Origin: a virus
Length of the DNA stretch: 64,000 nt
Virus record (IMG/VR): IMGVR_UViG_3300044641_009805
Coordinates: 1 to 64,000 of that record
Direction: 5' to 3' (one strand)
Positions 9,253-51,310 of this stretch are shown one piece after another (positions within the stretch are counted from its first letter, which is position 1; each line of letters begins with the position of its first letter). The notes beneath the pieces are model-generated. The model was not told the DNA's origin and did no database searches. It saw only the letters and a program-made list of their open reading frames with translations. The translations under genes and the position numbers were made by a program.

Positions 9253-9561
9253 GGAACGGTAAATCAATAGGTTCAGATTAGCGGTCTCATCAAAATGGTG
9301 ACTTCAATCAGTAATGATTGTCGAAAATCGGATGAATTCGGGGAAGTCTAAGTCGCAAGATATGATAATCCCGAGCCAAGTCCACCAAGCATGGTGGAAA
9401 GGTGTAGAGACTACCTGGTGTTGAATGATCTTTCAACGTAATACAGGGTTAGCGTCCGACACCCTAACAGTTAGGCTGAGGGTGATGATATAGTCCACAG
9501 AGTCAAGAAATTGACACAAATGTGAAACCGAAATGTGTGGGTTCGAGTCCCACCCGTTCCA
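9253..9561 (+). tRNA. tRNA with anticodon CAT (Met or Ile2), interrupted by a group I intron
   Basis: 5' exon 9253-9290: acceptor GGAACGG, D arm AATC/GATT, anticodon stem GCGGT, loop bases CTCAT. 3' exon 9525-9561: AA, stem ACCGA, 5-nt variable loop, T arm GTGGG-TTCGAGT-CCCAC, acceptor CCGTTCC, discriminator A. The acceptor pairs 7/7. After splicing the loop is CTCATAA, anticodon CAT. G1-C72 argues against an initiator tRNA, leaving elongator Met or Ile2 (C34 changed to lysidine by TilS). The phage carries a tilS gene at 17439, which favours but does not prove Ile2. CCA is not encoded. Confidence 0.8.
9291..9524 (+). mobile_element. Group I intron (about 234 nt) in the tRNA(CAT) anticodon loop
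   Basis: The intron follows U36 and ends in G, as group I introns require. The 5' exon UCAU can pair with an internal guide GTGA at 9298-9301, with U-G wobble at the splice site (P1). The core shows paired P7 strands GACTA (9409-9413) and TAGTC (9491-9495) inside the usual R (GTGTAGAGACTACC) and S (GATATAGTCC) elements. No ORF lies inside it. Bacterial tRNA(CAT) genes, as in Azoarcus, carry group I introns at the same position. Confidence 0.8.
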
Positions 9562-17438: not shown

Positions 17439-18047
17439 ATGATCAGGTTCCTAGGAAAGCTACCTCGGAAGTGCGTTGTTGCCTTCAGCAGCGGAGTTGA
17501 TTCGGTGGCTGTAACTGATTTCCTTCTGAACGGTAAACGTGATGTTCACCTGGCGTTTTTTCACCATGGAACTGCGACGTCCGATGAGGCCGAGGTATTC
17601 GCCAAGGAATTTTCCAAGGAACGTAACCTCACGCTCTCAATCGGGCGGATCAGCGGTGAAAAACCTCCTGGGGAATCGATGGAGGAATACTGGAGGAATG
17701 AAAGGTATCGTTTCCTTTCGATGTACGAATTTCCTGTTATTACCGCCCATCACCTTGGAGACGCGGTGGAAACATGGATCTTCAATTCTCTCCATGGAAA
17801 TCCTAGGGTGTTGCCCTACCAGAGGAACAACGTCATCAGGCCTTTTCTCATCACCCCAAAGTCTGAGCTGATTGATTGGGCGGAGAAAAAAGGATTGAAG
17901 TGGATGGAGGATGAATCCAACAACGATCTGAAGTACATGAGGAACTTGATCAGGCACAAGATCGTTCCTGAAGCGATGGTGGTTAATCCTGGTCTTGACA
18001 AGGTTGTAAAGAAGATGTATATTAAAGAAGAGATGAAAGAGGGGTAA
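17439..18047 (+). CDS. tilS: tRNA(Ile)-lysidine synthase-like PP-loop ATPase (short form)
   Basis: 202 residues. PP-loop FSSGVDSVAV near residues 16-25 (usually SGGxDS, so the first Gly is Ser), ITAHHLGDAVETWIFN (the family's xAHHxxDQxET region), and YMRNLIRHKIVPEAMVVNP, which matches the TilS RN-x-[IL]R-x-x-[IV]-x-P motif. TilS attaches lysine to C34 of tRNA-Ile2(CAT) so that it reads AUA. Bacterial TilS is usually longer (300-430 residues) because of C-terminal domains missing here. A tRNA(CAT) gene lies 8 kb upstream. Other PP-loop AMP-forming enzymes are possible, but the RHKIVPE motif favours TilS. Confidence 0.75.
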   Translation: MIRFLGKLPRKCVVAFSSGVDSVAVTDFLLNGKRDVHLAFFHHGTATSDEAEVFAKEFSKERNLTLSIGRISGEKPPGESMEEYWRNERYRFLSMYEFPVITAHHLGDAVETWIFNSLHGNPRVLPYQRNNVIRPFLITPKSELIDWAEKKGLKWMEDESNNDLKYMRNLIRHKIVPEAMVVNPGLDKVVKKMYIKEEMKEG

Positions 18048-18507: not shown

Positions 18508-18520
18508 AAAAGGAAATTTG

Positions 18521-19096
18521 ATGAGTGACTTGAAAAATCCGTCGTGGCCACAGGGACAGTTCGATCATAGGAACGTCATCGATTATTACAAATATTGGGA
18601 GCACGATGCGATCCTAGCCGACCAAGACAAGAACAGGTGCCGTTTGAAAATCGTGGCTGAGAATTTTGGAAATGACTTCAACATCTCAACCGTCGTGAGA
18701 TCTTCAAATGCTTTCTTGTGCAACGAAGTGATCATCGTTGGTCGAAGGCGTTGGGATCGGCGCGGAGCTTGCGGTACGCATAATTATGAGCACGTAAACT
18801 ATGAAGAGAATATTGGGAGCGTTATCTCCAAGAACCCGAATCATAGAGTGGTCGTGCTAGATAATGTTCCAGAAGCCTCTTCGATTTATGATTATAAATG
18901 GTATGAAGATACATTGCTTGTTTTAGGGCAAGAATCAATTGGGGTATCTCCTGAATCAATGGTGGCGGCCCATGATGTGATCTACATCCCGCAATGGGGA
19001 TCGGTTAGATCGTTGAACGTCGGATCAGCCGCCACAGTAGCCATGGCGTTTTATCGAGGACAGTGGGGTAAAGATCAGCCGACACCATCCCAATAA
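18521..19096 (+). CDS. SpoU/TrmH-family RNA 2'-O-methyltransferase
   Basis: 191 residues from ATG 18521 (AAGGAAA upstream). SPOUT motif 1 is FNISTVVRSSNAF (about residues 54-66), motif 2 LVLGQESIGVS and motif 3 IPQWGSVRSLNVGSAATVAM, which form the knotted SAM site. The family methylates ribose 2'-O in tRNA or rRNA; the substrate cannot be told here. No N-terminal substrate-binding domain, as in the short TrmL/TrmH types. It fits the translation theme of this region. Confidence 0.85.
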   Translation: MSDLKNPSWPQGQFDHRNVIDYYKYWEHDAILADQDKNRCRLKIVAENFGNDFNISTVVRSSNAFLCNEVIIVGRRRWDRRGACGTHNYEHVNYEENIGSVISKNPNHRVVVLDNVPEASSIYDYKWYEDTLLVLGQESIGVSPESMVAAHDVIYIPQWGSVRSLNVGSAATVAMAFYRGQWGKDQPTPSQ

Positions 19097-19891: not shown

Positions 19892-19927
19892 GTTTGAACA
19901 AAGAATCTTACATTGATTAATTTAACA

Positions 19928-20434
19928 ATGATGAAAATTACACCTTCACAAAAGTTGTTTCTACATAACGTTCTTTTTCACTATCTCATGCTCCCAGATG
20001 TCAGTATGAGAACTCAAGATGGAGTTGAAGAAATCATGCATCTTCTCGAAGATGAACTCATTCATCATGATGATGAAGACAATGATTTAGAGGATGATCA
20101 AGATGAAAAAGTAAAAGTAGAACTTCGGTCTCATGATGAGGAGGTTTCAGCATGGAGTTTAATGGATTTGCCTCCTTGTCGAGCCAAAACTTCTGACGAA
20201 GAGACGGGCAATCTATCTTTTTTTGGTGATGATGTAGATCTTCGATTCGACATCATTAATGACGATGGAACTGTCGTTGAAGAAGGAGATAGAGTTTTGC
20301 AGGTTATCCGCCGCGGAAAAGAAATCACACTGGTAAATGAGGAAGGTGATGAAAAGACTTTTCAAGTTTCAAAGTTTCCAAAGGAATGGACCAGTTTACT
20401 TAAAGCCAACCTATTTTATGGTGTGATGGATTGA
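19928..20434 (+). CDS. Acidic protein of unknown function
   Basis: 168 residues from ATG 19928. Very acidic middle (HHDDEDNDLEDDQDEK), then a region with LRFDIINDDGTVVEEGDRV and ITLVNEEGDEKTFQVSKF, suggesting a small SH3-like barrel at the C-terminus. Overlaps the next gene's upstream start. No recognised family. Confidence 0.55.
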   Translation: MMKITPSQKLFLHNVLFHYLMLPDVSMRTQDGVEEIMHLLEDELIHHDDEDNDLEDDQDEKVKVELRSHDEEVSAWSLMDLPPCRAKTSDEETGNLSFFGDDVDLRFDIINDDGTVVEEGDRVLQVIRRGKEITLVNEEGDEKTFQVSKFPKEWTSLLKANLFYGVMD

Positions 20435-20436
20435 AT

Positions 20437-20757
20437 ATGATGTTACAATTATCGCCGCAAGAATTGCTCGATTTATATAAAGCTGTGTTACTTTCGAACG
20501 ACTCTGTTTCTCGCCACGATATTCTTATGAAAATAGAGCATATAATGCTTTCTTCATTGGAAAATTCTTGGCAAAAAACCGTAACAACTGGGTTCGATAA
20601 ATGGTTAAAGTCTGAGACAAACAAGATTAAAGATCTAGAAGACGAGATTAAGAAAATAAATGAATCAATACCTAGAGAAGAATTAATTAAAAAATTTGTG
20701 CCTGCTTCTTCTTCCTCAAGAAATAAGCAAAAAGGAAGACCACGAAAAAGCAAATGA
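20437..20757 (+). CDS. Small helical protein with basic C-terminal tail
   Basis: 106 residues. Predicted mostly helical with a coiled-coil-like stretch (KWLKSETNKIKDLEDEIKKI) and a C-terminal KQKGRPRKSK that looks like an AT-hook (GRP core). May bind DNA; function unknown. Ends 4 nt before tmRNA. Confidence 0.55.
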   Translation: MMLQLSPQELLDLYKAVLLSNDSVSRHDILMKIEHIMLSSLENSWQKTVTTGFDKWLKSETNKIKDLEDEIKKINESIPREELIKKFVPASSSSRNKQKGRPRKSK

Positions 20758-20761
20758 TTCA

Positions 20762-21137
20762 GGGGCCAAAATAGTTTCGACGTGGTTTTGACATCGATCT
20801 ATGCAGGCCCAGGTGCACGAGGAACCTGGTAAAAATCCAAGTGACGTATAGTTGCCAACGACAACGGCTACGCTCCAGCTGCCCTAGCGGCCTGACTGGT
20901 TGGGTGGTGACAACCTAGAAACAGAAAGTCACAATCAATGGTTATCCTCATTGTATGAGGTGGGTTTCTCTCGGAAGGTGGTTCCGGAAGACGACTAACG
21001 GGTTTCGATCCGACCGGTCGTAAAATTGGTCAGATCGAATAGACTAGGATGGCGTCGATAAAATCATTCCAAGCCTGTGGACGAATTGTTTGATTGAAGA
21101 ATTGCGGACACCGGGGCAGTACCGGTTGGCTCCACCT
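20762..21137 (+). ncRNA. ssrA: Phage-encoded tmRNA
   Basis: 376 nt in single-piece layout. The acceptor pairs 7/7 (GGGGCCA at 20762-20768 with TGGCTCC at 21127-21133), followed by A and CCT rather than CCA. The 5' end continues TAGTTTCGACG, close to the conserved TTCGACG of bacterial tmRNA. The tag frame at 20854-20895 reads ANDNGYAPAALAA then TGA, preceded by TATAGTT; this is a typical proteobacterial-style tag ending in Leu-Ala-Ala. The T stem ACCGG/CCGGT closes a loop GGCAGTA instead of the usual TTCRANY. tmRNA rescues stalled ribosomes and marks products for ClpXP; a clpP gene follows directly. Confidence 0.93.
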
Positions 21138-21165
21138 GTTGTATATTTATAATCTGTAAAAACAT

Positions 21166-21768
21166 ATGAATATCATTAAAGACATCTCAAAACGTTTAGA
21201 AAAAGTCGAGCTACGTTACAACCCAGTGATCATCAGGGTGAATAAATTTGATGAGGAAGCCGCCGAAAAGTTCTCCAATCAAATGTCGGCCGCGCAGTCC
21301 ACGGGTCAAACGATGATCCCAGTGGTCATAGACTCTTATGGGGGTCAAGTCTACTCTCTCATGTCCATGATCGCAAACATTAAGGCTTCAAACATTCCGG
21401 TGGCAACAATCGTCGAAGGTAAGGCCATGTCATGTGGTGCGTTGTTGTTCAGCTACGGTACTTCTGGTTATCGTTTCATGGATAAGCACGCCACCATCAT
21501 GATCCATGATGTTTCTAGTGGTGCCAGGGGAAAGATCGAAGAGATCAAGGCCGACGCAAAAGAAGGTGATAGACTAAACCAGCTTGTTTATAGAGAAATG
21601 GCGGCAAATTGTGGCAAGGAACCTGAATTCTTTTTGAAGCAAATTCATGATAGGTCACACGCCGACTGGTATTTGGACGCAGAAGAAGCCCAATCGATCG
21701 GTCTGGCAAACCATTTACGAGTGCCTAGCCTCAAGGTGAAGGTCGACGTGTCTTATAGCTTTGAGTGA
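21166..21768 (+). CDS. clpP: ClpP-like ATP-dependent protease subunit
   Basis: 200 residues, the family's usual length. Catalytic triad visible: Ser89 in KAMSCGALL, His114 in TIMIHDVS and probably Asp167 in ADWYLDAEEAQSIGL. The oxyanion-region VVIDSYGGQVYSLMSM matches the ClpP substrate-strand region. It starts 28 nt after the tmRNA, suggesting joint use: tmRNA-tagged peptides are degraded by ClpXP. Alternatively, it may be a virion-maturation protease; ClpP-fold enzymes serve as prohead proteases in some phages. No ClpX or ClpA is in the window. Confidence 0.85.
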   Translation: MNIIKDISKRLEKVELRYNPVIIRVNKFDEEAAEKFSNQMSAAQSTGQTMIPVVIDSYGGQVYSLMSMIANIKASNIPVATIVEGKAMSCGALLFSYGTSGYRFMDKHATIMIHDVSSGARGKIEEIKADAKEGDRLNQLVYREMAANCGKEPEFFLKQIHDRSHADWYLDAEEAQSIGLANHLRVPSLKVKVDVSYSFE

Positions 21769-25743: not shown

Positions 25744-27678
25744 TTACGCGTCACGCCACAAATTATTTGAAGCATACACAAGAATTTCTTCTGCGCTTTC
25801 GGCGGTGTATCCATGATCCTTGATGAGTGTTGCCACCATCTCATTGTACTTTTCCTTCTGCTCCTCGTCGCGAGTTTTGCTCTTGGTCACGACTCGAGCA
25901 AGTGATTTGACCGATGAGATGAGGAATGATTCAATGGCTTCTCGGAGTGGTTCATAGGAACGGAATCCAACCTTTTCACCACGACGCATCTTGGCGAACA
26001 TGTAGGCAGCAACGTCGGAGCGGAAACCATCACGGGCTGAACCGCTGATACCGATCTGTTCTTCGATCGAAGCCATGAACTGTTCGTCTGGCTTTCTCTC
26101 TTCCTTTGTAACACGATCCTTGAGTTTGACACGGGTCGTGTATGCTTCAGCGTTGTCGAGATATGTATCGAATAGAGATTGAGCCTGCTCCTCGTATGCG
26201 GAGATAAATGCCTTTGCGATCTCATTCTCAAGGATCTTGAGGTATTCTTCTCGTACCGTCTTTTGGAGGATTTCTAGGCACTTTGTCTTGAACGTCTCGT
26301 CGTTGATCTGCTCCTTCACCATCTTGGTCAAAGACTCAATGACAGAAACTGGTGTAATCATTCCCTTGTCGGATGCCGTGAGGGCATTGTCCAATGCCTT
26401 GGTGATGAAACGCGTAGAGATACCATCCATGCCTTCGTGTTTAGCTTCCTCACGAAGATCCTTGATGTCGACCTTACGAACGCGACCCTTCTCAAGGACG
26501 TCCTCGCCGTTATAGATCTTCATTTTCGTCAATAAATCACATTTAGCTGATGGCTTCAAGCGGCTCATGACCGAGAACATTGATACAACCTTGAGGGTGT
26601 GAGGTGCGATGTGTGCCTTGAAGTCTGATTTACCTAGCATCTTCTCATAGATCTTCTGTTCCTGATCCACCTCAAGACAGTATGGAACTGCGATCTTCAC
26701 GATGCGGTCCATGATGGCTTCATTGGTGTGTTCTGACTGGAAGCGATTCCACTCAGCCTCATTACAGTGTGCGAGGATGACTCCGTCGAAGTGAAGCATA
26801 TCGCTCTTTCCGGGTGATGGAACCCTCTTCTCCTGTGTGGCGGTGATGATTGTATGGAGGAACTCAATCTCGTTCTTGAAGACCTCGACCAGTTCCACGA
26901 TGCCACGGTTACCTACGTTGAATGCTCCCGTGAGCGAAAGAGCTCGTGGATCATCCTCGGCAAACTTATCCAACTTAGAGATATCTACCGACCCAATGAG
27001 AACAGACACGTCCTGACTATTGGCATCCATTGGAGGAACAGCCGCGACACCTCTACGACCACGTTGCGAGAATGTCGTCTCCTCAACCTCGAAGTCCTCA
27101 TATTTACCGCCGTAATCGTTGAGAAGCTTGTGGCGGGCGACTGGTGAAATATCTCCATCAATCTTCACGTTGAGTGCCTTCTCAAATTCCGAGCGAAGAG
27201 AACGTGGTACGAGTTGCAGGGGTTCACCACGATGAGGATCTCCCTTGAGGTGATAGTACTTCTTGCCTTCGAGCGCACGTTTAATGTGTTCGGTTAATGC
27301 TGACTTACCAGCTCCAACTGGTCCCATGAGAAGAAGAACCTGACGAGATTCCTCGCCCTTATGTGCCGCTGAAGACAGGAACGACATGACCTTGTCAATG
27401 ACCGTCTCCATTCCGAAGAATTCACCTTCAAAGTACTTGTGGACCTTCACGGCATCGCCATCGAACACCTTGAATTTACGTGAATCCGAATCAGGCATCA
27501 CGTAGGAACCATGTTCCTCAATGGCCTCATATAACCTACGATGCGCTGATTTTACTATCGACGGTTCTTTCTCGACGAGGTCGACGTAATCCATAAGATT
27601 ACCAGAGAACTTTTTTGTTTTGGATGACTCTTCTCGAGCCGTTTGAATTTGTTTGAGTAGTTGCTTCTTGACGCTCAT
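25744..27678 (-). CDS. prkA: PrkA-type AAA+ serine protein kinase
   Basis: 644 residues, the usual size. N-terminal AAA PrkA domain: FFGMETVIDKVMSFL, Walker A GPVGAGKSAL (about 119-128), LKGDPHRGEPLQLVPRSLR (family signature), VLIGSVDISKL and RALSLTGAFNVGNRG, VILAHCNEAEW. The C-terminal PrkA region follows. In enterobacteria this is YeaG, a nutrient-stress kinase working with YeaH; in Bacillus it affects sporulation. Here it ends a three-gene unit with SpoVR and YeaH, in the usual company of chromosomal clusters. Probably reprogrammes host stress physiology. Confidence 0.9.
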   Translation of the reverse strand: MSVKKQLLKQIQTAREESSKTKKFSGNLMDYVDLVEKEPSIVKSAHRRLYEAIEEHGSYVMPDSDSRKFKVFDGDAVKVHKYFEGEFFGMETVIDKVMSFLSSAAHKGEESRQVLLLMGPVGAGKSALTEHIKRALEGKKYYHLKGDPHRGEPLQLVPRSLRSEFEKALNVKIDGDISPVARHKLLNDYGGKYEDFEVEETTFSQRGRRGVAAVPPMDANSQDVSVLIGSVDISKLDKFAEDDPRALSLTGAFNVGNRGIVELVEVFKNEIEFLHTIITATQEKRVPSPGKSDMLHFDGVILAHCNEAEWNRFQSEHTNEAIMDRIVKIAVPYCLEVDQEQKIYEKMLGKSDFKAHIAPHTLKVVSMFSVMSRLKPSAKCDLLTKMKIYNGEDVLEKGRVRKVDIKDLREEAKHEGMDGISTRFITKALDNALTASDKGMITPVSVIESLTKMVKEQINDETFKTKCLEILQKTVREEYLKILENEIAKAFISAYEEQAQSLFDTYLDNAEAYTTRVKLKDRVTKEERKPDEQFMASIEEQIGISGSARDGFRSDVAAYMFAKMRRGEKVGFRSYEPLREAIESFLISSVKSLARVVTKSKTRDEEQKEKYNEMVATLIKDHGYTAESAEEILVYASNNLWRDA

Positions 27679-27711
27679 GTTGTTATGTATACCTCTCCCT
27701 GCTCCAGTGTA

Positions 27712-29022
27712 TCAAATCTCCCAAGTTTCATCTTCAATAACCGTGAAAAACTTCACATCGCTACCCCATAGGGTCTTGACATGTTCCACGACCTTATTGG
27801 CATGACTTAATTCTAGATCTCGACCATCATGCTCATGTTTGATGATCAATGTGCCATCTCTCTTTACGTCGTCCACAAAGACAGCTGGAATTGATCCACC
27901 TGCCACTTGGTTGACAAGATCTTTCTTAACCTCTTCCCAGCCTAAATCATCTGAAACCTCATCGACAGTGACACCTTCATGACGTTTTGATGAGTACGTG
28001 AAGAGATTGAGATCCACACAGTCCTCCTCCGTGAGATATTGACGGAGGAAAGAAGCATCATGGCATGTCTCCCTTGCGATGAAACACTCTTCAATGCCAT
28101 GTCTCTCCTTGATCTTCTGGAAGAGATGGAAACCTAAGTGATAAGGATTTATCGCGCCCACATGAGGTCGAACCACTTGGTTGTGCATTTTGATAAAAGG
28201 TAAATGCATACCATCAGGCAGATCTAATTCATGACACATGGTGTAGTGCCAGTAGGAAGCCCAACCTTCATTCATCACCTTCGTTTGAATTTGTGGCCAG
28301 AAGTACTGACCTTCATCACGACAGACGTCAATTATATCACGCTTCCAGTCAGGCATCTTACCGTGCTCTGATATGAAGCCTAATAAATCGTAGTCAGGTT
28401 CTAAGGGAATTCTATTGATGTCAAAGAACTTATATTCATTTTTCTTGTCGTTGTTCATCAGCTCAACGTATTCCGCCTTGAGCTCCGCATGTGTTCTGCG
28501 AATTTGCCCATACTTCGTCGTCTGGAACTGTATTGCATGACAGGCATCTATCACCTCTTCCACATTTTCCACACCAATGTTGGGATTCTCAATGTAAGAC
28601 TGGATTCTCTTCTTCGCTGCTCTGAACCGAGGCACGACTGTCTCAGGACGTGTGGCCTTGAACATCCTGTTGTTCTTAAAGAAATCGCTATGTCCAACGC
28701 AATGCGCCATGATGAGGATCTGCAGGTATAGTGGATTCTCACGCATGAGGTAAGCGATCGACGGATCACTGTTGATGATTAATTCATACGGCAAACCTTC
28801 CATACCTAGGTTATAACGGTGGAAGGTTTGTTCGAACGTTTTGCCGTAAGACCAATGATCGAAGTGTGTAGGAAGACCATGATAGGCCATGGCACCGATC
28901 ATTGAGTAATAATCGAGGGTTTCATAGGCAATCTCAAACCAATCGAGATTGTGACCCTTGGCCAACTTGCAGATTTTATCATCCCATTCTGCCAATGTAT
29001 CTAATGTGTAATCCATTTTCAT
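27712..29022 (-). CDS. SpoVR family protein
   Basis: 436 residues. Conserved SpoVR segments are clear: FEIAYETLDYYSMIGAMAYHGLPTHF region, YELIINSDPSIAYLMREN, HCVGHSDFFKNN, WPQIQTKVMNEGWASYWHY, INPYHLGFHLFQKI, and the C-terminal DLELSHANKVVEHVKTLWG. Role unknown beyond involvement in cortex formation in Bacillus and stress responses in Proteobacteria (YcgB). The ATG overlaps the stop of the upstream YeaH gene. Confidence 0.9.
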   Translation of the reverse strand: MKMDYTLDTLAEWDDKICKLAKGHNLDWFEIAYETLDYYSMIGAMAYHGLPTHFDHWSYGKTFEQTFHRYNLGMEGLPYELIINSDPSIAYLMRENPLYLQILIMAHCVGHSDFFKNNRMFKATRPETVVPRFRAAKKRIQSYIENPNIGVENVEEVIDACHAIQFQTTKYGQIRRTHAELKAEYVELMNNDKKNEYKFFDINRIPLEPDYDLLGFISEHGKMPDWKRDIIDVCRDEGQYFWPQIQTKVMNEGWASYWHYTMCHELDLPDGMHLPFIKMHNQVVRPHVGAINPYHLGFHLFQKIKERHGIEECFIARETCHDASFLRQYLTEEDCVDLNLFTYSSKRHEGVTVDEVSDDLGWEEVKKDLVNQVAGGSIPAVFVDDVKRDGTLIIKHEHDGRDLELSHANKVVEHVKTLWGSDVKFFTVIEDETWEI

Positions 29023-30191
29023 CCTTTGGTCAAAGACACGCCTGTACCACCCATCAATGTTCTAAAAGCAGGCCATACGTCTGCCTTCTCTACCACTCTA
29101 ACGGTCTTTAATTTTGGTCCGACGAGAGGTTGCATCGTTGTATGGAGCTTGTCTTGATTGTAATACCTTTCAGGTTCAATCTCGCAGTAACCGTACAGCT
29201 GACAGATGTCTTTTAGCTCACGTGCGAGATTTATGAACTTTTCATTATCAGATGAGAAGTTATCGCCATCGGACGCCTGAAACGTGTAGATGTTCCACGA
29301 TGATGGATGAAATCGTTTATCTATCTCTTGTAACGTCAGCTCCAAAGCGCTGGATGCAATCGTTCCTCCGCTGGTCGCTTCCGTGAAGAATTCTTTCTCT
29401 TCGACCACCCTCGCCTCAGTGTCATGCGTGATGAAAACGACCTCGACCGTTTCGTACTTGGACCTGATGAACTGGTAGAGTAAAAAGAAGAAAGATCTTG
29501 CCAGGAACTTCTTGTCTTGCGTCATAGACCCGCTGACGTCCATCAAGAAGAATATGACTGCGTTGGTGCAAGGTTTCGGTGTGACCTTGAAGTGTCTGTA
29601 CCGCAGATCGTCTTCGTGGAAAGAGAAGGTTTCTCCTTCTTCGGCTTTTTCAGGGTCAAATCCAGCCGCCTTCATTCTCTTGATTCGAGCGATTGCAGAC
29701 TTCTTCTTGTCCAAGCGTGGAAGAATACCGTCAGTACGATACCCATTTCTCTTTAATTTATCAGCTGATATGTTCGACAGTTGACGTCTCTGCAACTCAG
29801 GAAGCTGTAGTTCAGCGAAGAGATACTCTGCGAGTTCTTCCAACGTGATCTCAACGTCGTAATATTCTTCTCCTTTTTGATCACTGGCCTTCTGCGGTTT
29901 TCCTTGACCTTGCTGTTGTCCCTCACCGATTTTTTGGCCTCGTTTGACATCCTTACCAGGAGCCGATCCAACCTGCTTATTGCCGTTGTTGTCGCCGTAG
30001 ACAAACTTGTATTCCTTAATTCCTCTAACAGGAACTCTGAACTTTTTCTTGCCATCTTGACCTATGATGCTCTCATCAGCGACAATATGATGAATACCAT
30101 CTCGAATTGCCTTCTCGATTTTCTGTTTGTGACGACGTCGATCGGAGGCGGATCGATCAGCGATTGTCTTATGTTCCTTAAAGATCGACAT
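29019..30191 (-). CDS. YeaH/YhbH family protein (DUF444, VWA-like)
   Basis: 390 residues. N-terminus ADRSASDRRRHKQKIEKAI and VPVRGIKEYKFVYG are family hallmarks; the C-terminal half is a VWA-like domain with MIDAS FLMDVSGSMT and TFQASDGDNFSSD. YeaH partners the kinase YeaG/PrkA. A -10-like TATAAT lies 7 nt before the ATG, so the mRNA may be leaderless, although the -35 is weak. First gene of the three-gene minus-strand unit. Confidence 0.9.
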   Translation of the reverse strand: MSIFKEHKTIADRSASDRRRHKQKIEKAIRDGIHHIVADESIIGQDGKKKFRVPVRGIKEYKFVYGDNNGNKQVGSAPGKDVKRGQKIGEGQQQGQGKPQKASDQKGEEYYDVEITLEELAEYLFAELQLPELQRRQLSNISADKLKRNGYRTDGILPRLDKKKSAIARIKRMKAAGFDPEKAEEGETFSFHEDDLRYRHFKVTPKPCTNAVIFFLMDVSGSMTQDKKFLARSFFFLLYQFIRSKYETVEVVFITHDTEARVVEEKEFFTEATSGGTIASSALELTLQEIDKRFHPSSWNIYTFQASDGDNFSSDNEKFINLARELKDICQLYGYCEIEPERYYNQDKLHTTMQPLVGPKLKTVRVVEKADVWPAFRTLMGGTGVSLTKG

Positions 30192-37334: not shown

Positions 37335-38957
37335 ATGTCTTTTGAACCCCATCCTCCTAAATCTAATAATTGCGTGTTATTTTCTAGCGATGCTAGAAAA
37401 AAGCTATATGCAGGTCTTAGCATAGCAGCTGAAGCAGTAAGCTGCACTTTAGGTCCGAATGGAAAAACAGTCTTAATCCAAAATGGAAATGATTCTCCGA
37501 TCATTACAAAAGACGGCGTAACGGTCAGCAAATCCGTAAAACTAGATGATCCAGTAGAGATGATGGGAGTAAGGCTACTGAGAGAAGCAGCGTCTCAAAC
37601 CAATGACACAGCTGGCGATGGAACGACTACCTCGACCGTCCTTACACATGCTTTAGTAAAAAATGGATTAAATTTGTTAGAGGCGGGTTACAACGCGAAA
37701 AAATTAGTAGAAGGAATGGACATCGCGATCAAATTAGTGACTGATGCCGTTGTTTCTCAGGCACATCCAGTCGAAACGACTGAAGAAATTGCGCAAATTG
37801 GTACCATTTCAGCCAATGGTGATAAGAAAATAGGTGAGCTAATTTCAGCTGCAATGGAAAAAGTTGGAAGAGATGGAATCATTACTGTAGAAGATGCTAA
37901 GGGAATGGCGACCACTCTTGACGTGGTTGACGGAATGCAGTTTGATAGGGGTTATTTAAGTCCTTACTTCGTTACGAACAACGAAAAGATGCATGCTTCT
38001 TATAATGATGCATATGTTCTAATCACAGATAAAAAAATATCTGTATTAAAGGATCTTGTTCCTATTCTTGAATCTGTGGTAAATTCTAGAAAACCTCTTC
38101 TCATCATTGCTGATGATGTTGACGGAGAAGCATTACAAGGGTTAGTTCTTAATAGAGTGAAATCTCAATTACCGATTGTTGCCATTAAGTCTCCTGGATT
38201 TGGAACTTCAAAAGATGAATATCTTATTGATATTTCAAAACTGACAGGAGCTAAGCTGGTTTCTAGCTCTACTGGTTTGTCTTTGGACAAAGTAAAACTA
38301 TCAGATCTGGGAACTGCAAAGAAGTTTGTTGTCGATGCAAAAACCACTACGATCGTTGGTCCTTCATCTGCGAGAGAGCAGGTCCAAGAGCATGTTTCTG
38401 ATTTAAAAGTGAGGCTTAATGATGTAACAATAAGCTCTCTTGAAATGAATAACCTAAGAACCAGAATTGCTCGGCTCGCTTCTGGGGTTGCTGTCGTACG
38501 AGTCGGCGGGGCCACCGAGATGGAAATGATCGAACGCAAATATAGAATAGAAGATGCTCTTCATGCGACACGCGCAGCGACTGAAGAAGGAATAATTCCG
38601 GGCGGAGGAACAGCTTTATACACGGCATCGATAGCAGCCAGAAAAGCTACAAAAAATGTCTCTTATGAAAGGGACGTGTTGGCCGGAATTGAAATGGTTT
38701 TTAAATCTTGCGTAGAACCATTGAGGAGAATTGCTCATAATAGTGGCAAATCGCCAGACGTCATTGAAGAATGTATGAGTAAGAATGTCAATAACAACTT
38801 CGGATATGATGCTTCTTCAGGCGAGTTTGTCGATCTTGTGGCGGCTGGTATTATCGACCCAGTCAAGGTTACTAAAATGGCTCTTAAGAATTCTTCTTCA
38901 GTTGCTAGACTGTTTTTAACTTTAGACGCTGTCTTGGTCAATGGAGAAACTGCTTGA
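37335..38957 (+). CDS. groEL: GroEL-type chaperonin
   Basis: 540 residues. An N-terminal extension of about 18 residues precedes the family core: CTLGPNGKTVLIQ, ITKDGVTVSKSV, the ATP-binding AGDGTTTSTVL, ISANGD, and the ATPase region DALHATRAATEEGIIPGGG with catalytic Asp. The usual Gly-Gly-Met tail is missing. No groES is present in the window. Large phages use their own or host chaperonins to fold capsid proteins. Leaderless-type promoter directly upstream. Confidence 0.95.
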   Translation: MSFEPHPPKSNNCVLFSSDARKKLYAGLSIAAEAVSCTLGPNGKTVLIQNGNDSPIITKDGVTVSKSVKLDDPVEMMGVRLLREAASQTNDTAGDGTTTSTVLTHALVKNGLNLLEAGYNAKKLVEGMDIAIKLVTDAVVSQAHPVETTEEIAQIGTISANGDKKIGELISAAMEKVGRDGIITVEDAKGMATTLDVVDGMQFDRGYLSPYFVTNNEKMHASYNDAYVLITDKKISVLKDLVPILESVVNSRKPLLIIADDVDGEALQGLVLNRVKSQLPIVAIKSPGFGTSKDEYLIDISKLTGAKLVSSSTGLSLDKVKLSDLGTAKKFVVDAKTTTIVGPSSAREQVQEHVSDLKVRLNDVTISSLEMNNLRTRIARLASGVAVVRVGGATEMEMIERKYRIEDALHATRAATEEGIIPGGGTALYTASIAARKATKNVSYERDVLAGIEMVFKSCVEPLRRIAHNSGKSPDVIEECMSKNVNNNFGYDASSGEFVDLVAAGIIDPVKVTKMALKNSSSVARLFLTLDAVLVNGETA

Positions 38958-49809: not shown

Positions 49810-50006
49810 GTCTCCCCGCTCGAGTGGACTGTGAAGGTGGGTGCCCATTCCCAGAAGGTGTCCCCGTGTGGGGAGAGGACGTGGACCATCGTGTCTGATC
49901 CATTGGGTGATTCCACCTTGATGACCGGGTAGACCGCCGATCGATCTCGTTCATTCCAGGTCAGTACGCCGGGGCGGAAGGTGACCATGTCTCCCACGCG
50001 GATCAT
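49806..50006 (-). CDS. SH3/KOW-like small protein (GDLV family)
   Basis: 66 residues from ATG 50006: MIRVGDMVTFRPGVLTW, VYPVIKVESPNG, MVHVLSPHGDTFWEW. ATG overlaps the stop of the VWA gene upstream, so it is translationally coupled to it. Confidence 0.7.
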   Translation of the reverse strand: MIRVGDMVTFRPGVLTWNERDRSAVYPVIKVESPNGSDTMVHVLSPHGDTFWEWAPTFTVHSSGET

Positions 50007-51310
50007 CGCCAGGCTCCGGACTTGGGGGTCGTGGGATCTAGGGAGATGGTGATCTCGTTGGTGGGGAATTCCAGCTTGTGGCCGGGGGAGATGACCCAGC
50101 CGCGCTTGACTCGGGAGGGGCCGGGGGCAGAGCACTCACCGTCGGTCATGATGAGCATGCCGTCCCACTTGCCCCGGTTCTTCGGGTCGTTGACGATCTT
50201 GGTGGGGGCGTTGAAGTCAGTACCTCCGCCTCGGACCCGCTTGGCGTCCACGTTGCTTCCCTTCTTCCATTCGAAGGCATCGCGGAGGTCTGCTGCGCAG
50301 TCGAAGGGGAGGATGGTGACCGTGACCTTCTTCGTGAGGGTGGCGAGTTCGTTGAAGAAGAGGGCGAGCTGGCGGTCATCCACGCTTCCGGATTGGTCGA
50401 TGGCGATGAGGAGCTTGGCGACGTAGCCACGCTTGACGCCGGGGTGGATGTAGGGGTAGCGCTTGTTGATACGCTTGATGGTGGTGGTGCGTTCACCGCG
50501 GGCGATGTTACCGATGAATTGGCGGAGAACGTTGCGCCAGTCGACGAGCTTGCTGACCGAGCGGCGGATCTCTTCGCGGAGTTCGGAGGGGATGTTGCCC
50601 CATCCGTTCGCCTGGGAGTCGGCGTGCTTCGTGGCCTTCTCCACCATGCCGTTGACCTTAGAGGCGACCATCTCCTTCTGTTCATCGGTCAGCTCGTCCC
50701 AGGCCGAGTGGTCATCGAAGGAGTCGAGGCCGCCGAAGGGGTCACCGTCGGGGTGAGGGGTGCCCTTGGCGTTGTCACCCTTCTTGCGTTCCTCCTCAAC
50801 CTTGTCCTTGAGCTTCTCGAAGTACCACTCCGAGGATTGCCCCTTGGGGAAGTCAGCGATGAGTTGGGCGATGGGCATGGCGGCTTTCTCCTCCGCCGTC
50901 CACTCGCGACCTTCGGGACCGGCAGGGAAGACGCCTGGCATGAGGCAACCGGCCGGCAGTGTCATGTTCGAGTGGCCGGAGATGATCGAGTTGATGGCGA
51001 GGTCCGTCGCCACGTTCCACATCTTCGCCGGCTTCTTGCGGCGGGTCGTGAGGTGGCAGAAGATGAGGTGGTAGAACTCGTGGGTGAGGACGCCACGGAT
51101 CTCCTGGTCGCTCATCGGCCGGAAGAACTCAGGGTTCCAGTACAGGGTGATGTCGTCGAACTCCGGGTCGAAGGCCACCGCCGCCGTGGGCATGTCGAGG
51201 GTGGGCGTCTTCCGGATGTGCCGGCTCAGTTCCGCAAAGAACGGCGTGTCCTGGAGGAACGAGATGAGGTGCCGGTCCAGGTTGAAGTCTGTGTCCGTGT
51301 GGCTGAACAT
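50003..51310 (-). CDS. VWA-domain protein with HExxH metallopeptidase-like N-terminus
   Basis: 435 residues. The N-terminal region has GVLTHEFYHLIFCHL with HExxH at residues 77-81, as in the metallopeptidase-like domains fused to VWA. The C-terminal VWA-like domain has MIDAS IAIDQSGSVDD, KKVTVTILPFDC, GGGTDFNAP and IMTDGECS. Such proteins usually partner MoxR-type AAA+ ATPases; one lies at 55589. Leaderless-type promoter. Confidence 0.8.
   Translation of the reverse strand: MFSHTDTDFNLDRHLISFLQDTPFFAELSRHIRKTPTLDMPTAAVAFDPEFDDITLYWNPEFFRPMSDQEIRGVLTHEFYHLIFCHLTTRRKKPAKMWNVATDLAINSIISGHSNMTLPAGCLMPGVFPAGPEGREWTAEEKAAMPIAQLIADFPKGQSSEWYFEKLKDKVEEERKKGDNAKGTPHPDGDPFGGLDSFDDHSAWDELTDEQKEMVASKVNGMVEKATKHADSQANGWGNIPSELREEIRRSVSKLVDWRNVLRQFIGNIARGERTTTIKRINKRYPYIHPGVKRGYVAKLLIAIDQSGSVDDRQLALFFNELATLTKKVTVTILPFDCAADLRDAFEWKKGSNVDAKRVRGGGTDFNAPTKIVNDPKNRGKWDGMLIMTDGECSAPGPSRVKRGWVISPGHKLEFPTNEITISLDPTTPKSGAWR

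Follow-up and report, generated by a model that had tools for sequence, protein, structure and literature searches.

The window, a stretch of 64,000 nucleotides, is part of a 278,435-base virus record from a large, uncultured phage. It carries a one-piece tmRNA gene with a tRNA-like domain of the AG/GGCAGUA class (20762-21137, + strand), recognized by an RF00023 match and by covariation, followed on the same strand by clpP, which encodes a ClpP-family serine peptidase of 200 aa (21166-21768, +). The end of the tmRNA and the start codon of clpP are separated by 28 nt; the 28 nt given in the earlier note is this gap and not the distance from start to start. Upstream of the tmRNA lie ORF108 (20437-20757, +), a small coiled-coil protein with a basic tail, and ORF173 (19913-20434, +), an acidic protein that belongs to the same transplanted block. 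Elsewhere in the window we observed genes for a PP-loop ATPase (TilS-like) and a SpoU-type RNA methylase upstream of the tmRNA block (17439-18047 and 18518-19096), consecutive genes for PrkA, SpoVR and DUF444 (YeaH-like) (25744-30191, -), a Cpn60/GroEL-type chaperonin gene (37335-38957), and a DUF2201 putative metallopeptidase with a VWA-like domain (50003-51310, -). Rfam also identified a group I intron (RF00028, 9278-9517, 93.6 bits) in the region 9253-9561, where it seems to split a tRNA gene: the flanks GGAACGG and CCGTTCC pair, and a T-arm follows.

The Rfam model RF00023 covered 20762-21137 (+) end to end with 76.1 bits (E = 9.4e-28) against a gathering score of 47, and this was the only tmRNA that Rfam found. 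The covariance-model search thus upheld the earlier note's claim of a complete tmRNA. The RNA is about 376 nt long and its gene order is standard and unpermuted. The 5' strand of the acceptor stem, GGGGCCA (20762-20768, +), pairs with UGGCUCC at 21127-21133 and includes G3-U70. Reading from the resume codon at 20854 gave the tag ANDNGYAPAALAA, as had been proposed, and resume codon, tag and stop occupy 20854-20895 (+) of the sequence. The tag terminates in LAA, and both its frame and the LAA ending are kept in the relatives L007, L123, L294, L427, and L293. In gene order, acceptor stem with G3-U70, resume codon, tag and length, the gene is like the standard one-piece tmRNAs of RF00023, which include those of phages Bxz1 and G and of huge phages. 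It differs from them in its loops: rather than GG and UUCRANY, it has a D-loop UAG (20772-20774, +) that replaces the canonical UGG/CGG and a T-arm of ACCGG-GGCAGTA-CCGGT (21110-21126, +), from which the canonical TpsiC loop is absent. This T-loop is identical in relatives, where the stem shows compensatory changes. CCA is also unencoded, and since the 3' end is ACCT, it must be added. The GGCAGUA loop is a class trait common to many accepted tmRNAs and is no bar to membership in RF00023.

Viral contigs were scanned with patterns and with proteins to collect relatives of the tmRNA, and covariation was assessed on an alignment of eight phage copies, in which five helices with 33 pairs were compared with 500 shuffles. 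Across these helices, 98.1% of cells were paired, as against 81.9% in the shuffles, and both sides had changed in 18 of the 33 pairs; none of the 500 shuffles scored as high on any measure, and pairing collapsed when slid versions of the alignment were used. The acceptor stem was paired in 100% of cells, with three of its seven pairs changed on both sides, and G3-U70 was invariant (GU in 8/8 copies). The strong covariation and the invariant G3-U70 establish that the tmRNA is structurally maintained. It is also under purifying selection, because the mRNA-like domains of the window and L123 are 92% identical, whereas the adjacent ORF108 proteins are only 37% identical. A search of GenBank phages gave no relative of the window tmRNA, apart from similarity over 39 nt around the point where the tag begins.

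ARAGORN did not report the tmRNA in the window, because its D and T loops depart from the canonical sequences (AG for GG, GGCAGUA for UUCRANY). A scan for the T-arm recovered many viral contigs; the T-stem was perfect in every one of them, and most of those put through Rfam have permuted tmRNAs. Indeed, the AG/GGCAGUA loops are common to the permuted tmRNAs of alphaproteobacteria (RF01849, RF04321), which share the T-loop and an ANDN-type tag start with the window tmRNA; unlike the window gene, they carry the T-arm half before the 5' half of the acceptor. The halves of the permuted model RF04321 match the window tmRNA in swapped order, below the cut-off. One-piece genes with these loops also occur in Saccharibacteria, Myxococcales, other bacteria, and other phages, which rules out a re-linearized alphaproteobacterial gene unique to phages, and 14 distinct viral sequences in our gathered set carry them. 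ARAGORN detected none of 62 one-piece AG/GGCAGUA genes, which had been chosen by stem pairing with an Rfam check on a sample only, as against 3/3 canonical genes. AG/GGCAGUA is a normal, recurrent second class of tRNA-like domain and not damage. In L007, the mRNA-like domain is 90% identical to that of the window while the tRNA-like domain is canonical, and here ARAGORN detects the gene. This pair of genes suggests, quite tentatively, that phage tmRNAs may switch the class of their tRNA-like domain (GG/UUCRANY versus AG/GGCAGUA) while retaining the same mRNA-like domain, possibly as an adaptation to a different SmpB or AlaRS when the host changes.

The protein encoded beside the tmRNA is ClpP-like, as the earlier note had it. 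The Pfam model CLP_protease (PF00574) matched 21166-21768 with 95 bits, and an AlphaFold model (mean pLDDT 77) has the ClpP fold and matches solved ClpP structures, to which the protein is about 26-29% identical. It shares with housekeeping ClpP both this fold and the Ser-His-Asp triad, and S89/H114/D167, the residues of this triad, are conserved in 78 of 78 family members; the protein differs from housekeeping ClpP in its low identity to the solved structures and in its ClpX-docking residues. For these we used the positions that we take to form the docking site of E. coli ClpP. When the 78-member family was aligned to E. coli ClpP, Y62 was replaced by V or I, M92 by E in 76 of 78 members, L114 mostly by D, and L189 by R or K across the family. 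By alignment, the hydrophobic site that would receive the IGF loops of ClpX or ClpA is thus absent, with charged residues instead; the role of this site in ClpP has been described (PMC9035409). Because these residues are replaced throughout the family (Y62V, M92E, L114D, L189R/K), canonical docking of host ClpX onto the phage ClpP appears unlikely. The best PHROG match was PHROG 94, the ClpP-type head maturation proteases; however, clpP lies outside the head cassette, where a separate T4-type S77 prohead protease (91.6-92.2 kb of the record) adjoins the portal and terminase genes. A prohead protease role is thereby ruled out, and the ClpP, with its true ClpP-family fold, is distinct from the phage's own T4-type enzyme. 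We found neither an SmpB gene nor a Clp ATPase or AAA_2 family unfoldase (ClpX/ClpA) in the record, which may be incomplete and could lack either for that reason. The phage ClpP belongs to a separate phage peptidase family that is widespread in huge phages.

The tmRNA is more regularly associated with ORF108 than with clpP. In seven lineages, ORF108 is the immediate upstream neighbour of the tmRNA, mostly with a gap of a few nt, and the tmRNA lineage comes after it in L123, L294, L427, L292, and L293; homologues of ORF173 lie upstream of ORF108 in L007, L292, L293, and the G005 locus. No relative of ORF108 was found in GenBank phages. Downstream, the gene next to the tmRNA is ORF59 rather than clpP in L123, L294, and L293, the members of this lineage whose records extend that far, and ORF59-ORF73-ORF154 is the usual, ancestral downstream flank of the slot. 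In the window genome (G000), these three genes occupy 172.7-174.8 kb, next to a collagen-like gene and about 150 kb from the tmRNA. The clpP side of the border tells a similar story: in L008, an 83%-identical clpP retains the downstream prkA-spoVR-DUF444 block, while the genes upstream of it are different ones that lie at 258-259 kb in the window genome. Given the distant flank and the context of clpP in L008, we conclude that a rearrangement specific to this clade created the border between the tmRNA and clpP. Between the two genes is an ATATTTA motif (21143-21149, +), which is a possible phage promoter and might serve clpP separately. In the record as a whole, the 60 nt preceding ORF starts are enriched about 19-fold in ATATTTA, which frequently sits some 12 nt upstream of the ATG; a scan for promoter and terminator consensus sequences was not above chance overall.

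The earlier note had read the two genes as an evolved rescue-and-destroy pair, in which the phage tmRNA tags stalled products and the phage ClpP, together with host ClpX, destroys them. The short gap on one strand, the intact catalytic triad, and the LAA ending of the tag are what such a pair would show. The distribution of the genes argues otherwise. We surveyed 50 records with close relatives of clpP, many of them fragments, and found a tmRNA over the cut-off in eight; it was beside clpP in only three of the eight, all from the window's clade, and 40-145 kb away in the other five. In L123, a clpP relative (34%) lies about 45 kb from the tmRNA. Adjacency was seen only in the window, L004, L005, and L007. 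Moreover, the near-identical sister phage L006 (ClpP 99% identical) still has clpP but has lost all of the tmRNA except its 5' part, so that clpP survived the loss of its neighbour. With a family-wide charged docking pocket, no SmpB or Clp ATPase found in the record, and possibly a promoter of its own before clpP, the pair was not borne out, and we regard it as very improbable. Selection may have favored the adjacency once the rearrangement had taken place.

A different objection is that the tmRNA itself is not functional, either because the odd T-loop marks decay or because the RNA, instead of rescuing ribosomes, titrates away SmpB or AlaRS. The gene is missed by ARAGORN, does not encode CCA, and has been largely deleted in L006, and a tRNA-like-domain-only RNA of the phage DS6A type inhibits host tmRNA (PMC4131195). 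Decay of the T-loop is ruled out by the identical loop of L123, with its compensatory stem changes, and by the scan that revealed a whole class. As bacteria and many phages have the same pair of loops, the acceptor and T stems show compensatory changes, and the tag frame and mRNA-like domain are strongly kept, a damaged or decoy RNA is improbable. The usual neighbour ORF108 could instead encode a protein dedicated to the tmRNA, such as a stand-in for SmpB. However, ORF108 is predicted to be all-helical, whereas SmpB is a beta barrel, and G005 (ClpP 83% identical to the window's) keeps ORF173-ORF108-ORF73 with tRNA sequence and no tmRNA in the slot. There, the interval between ORF108 and ORF73 (L429, G005:243800-247000) contains a single clear tRNA gene and, in addition, a weak tRNA-like match. 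Such replacement weakens the case for a dedicated partner, which we judge the least probable of these alternatives.

Starting from what was directly observed, namely the structure and class of the RNA, the selection that maintains it, the rearrangement, the ClpP residues, and the failure to detect SmpB or ClpX/ClpA, we favor, with a probability of roughly 75%, the reading that 20762-21137 is a working phage tmRNA and that the neighbouring clpP encodes a separate peptidase brought alongside by rearrangement. The tmRNA would be processed out of a transcript that also spans ORF108, receive alanine from host AlaRS via G3-U70, and be bound by host SmpB and EF-Tu. During infection, it would then rescue ribosomes that have stalled on broken mRNA, and the LAA-ending tag may act as a degron readable by host ClpXP. 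Movement of the ORF173-ORF108-tmRNA block by about 150 kb within the clade would have made clpP adjacent. On the sequence evidence, the locus holds a functional-looking tmRNA, whose partners are most likely SmpB and ClpXP of the host, next to the gene of a phage peptidase unrelated to it.

Earlier work has described phage tmRNAs and SmpB (PMC7162821, PMC9004378, PMC4131195). Although known, tmRNAs of phages are scarce in databases; a 2025 tmRNA collection contains 79 phage sequences (PMC11915505). New here are the set of one-piece AG/GGCAGUA phage tmRNAs, a slot occupied by a tmRNA or, alternatively, by tRNAs, and a ClpP family whose docking site appears altered by alignment. Two phage surveys counted or assigned tmRNAs with ARAGORN (PMC9004378, PMC7162821); because ARAGORN found no one-piece AG/GGCAGUA genes in our gathered set, such counts of phage tmRNAs are probably too low. 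The locus also illustrates that gene adjacency in phages can stem from rearrangement and not from joint function.
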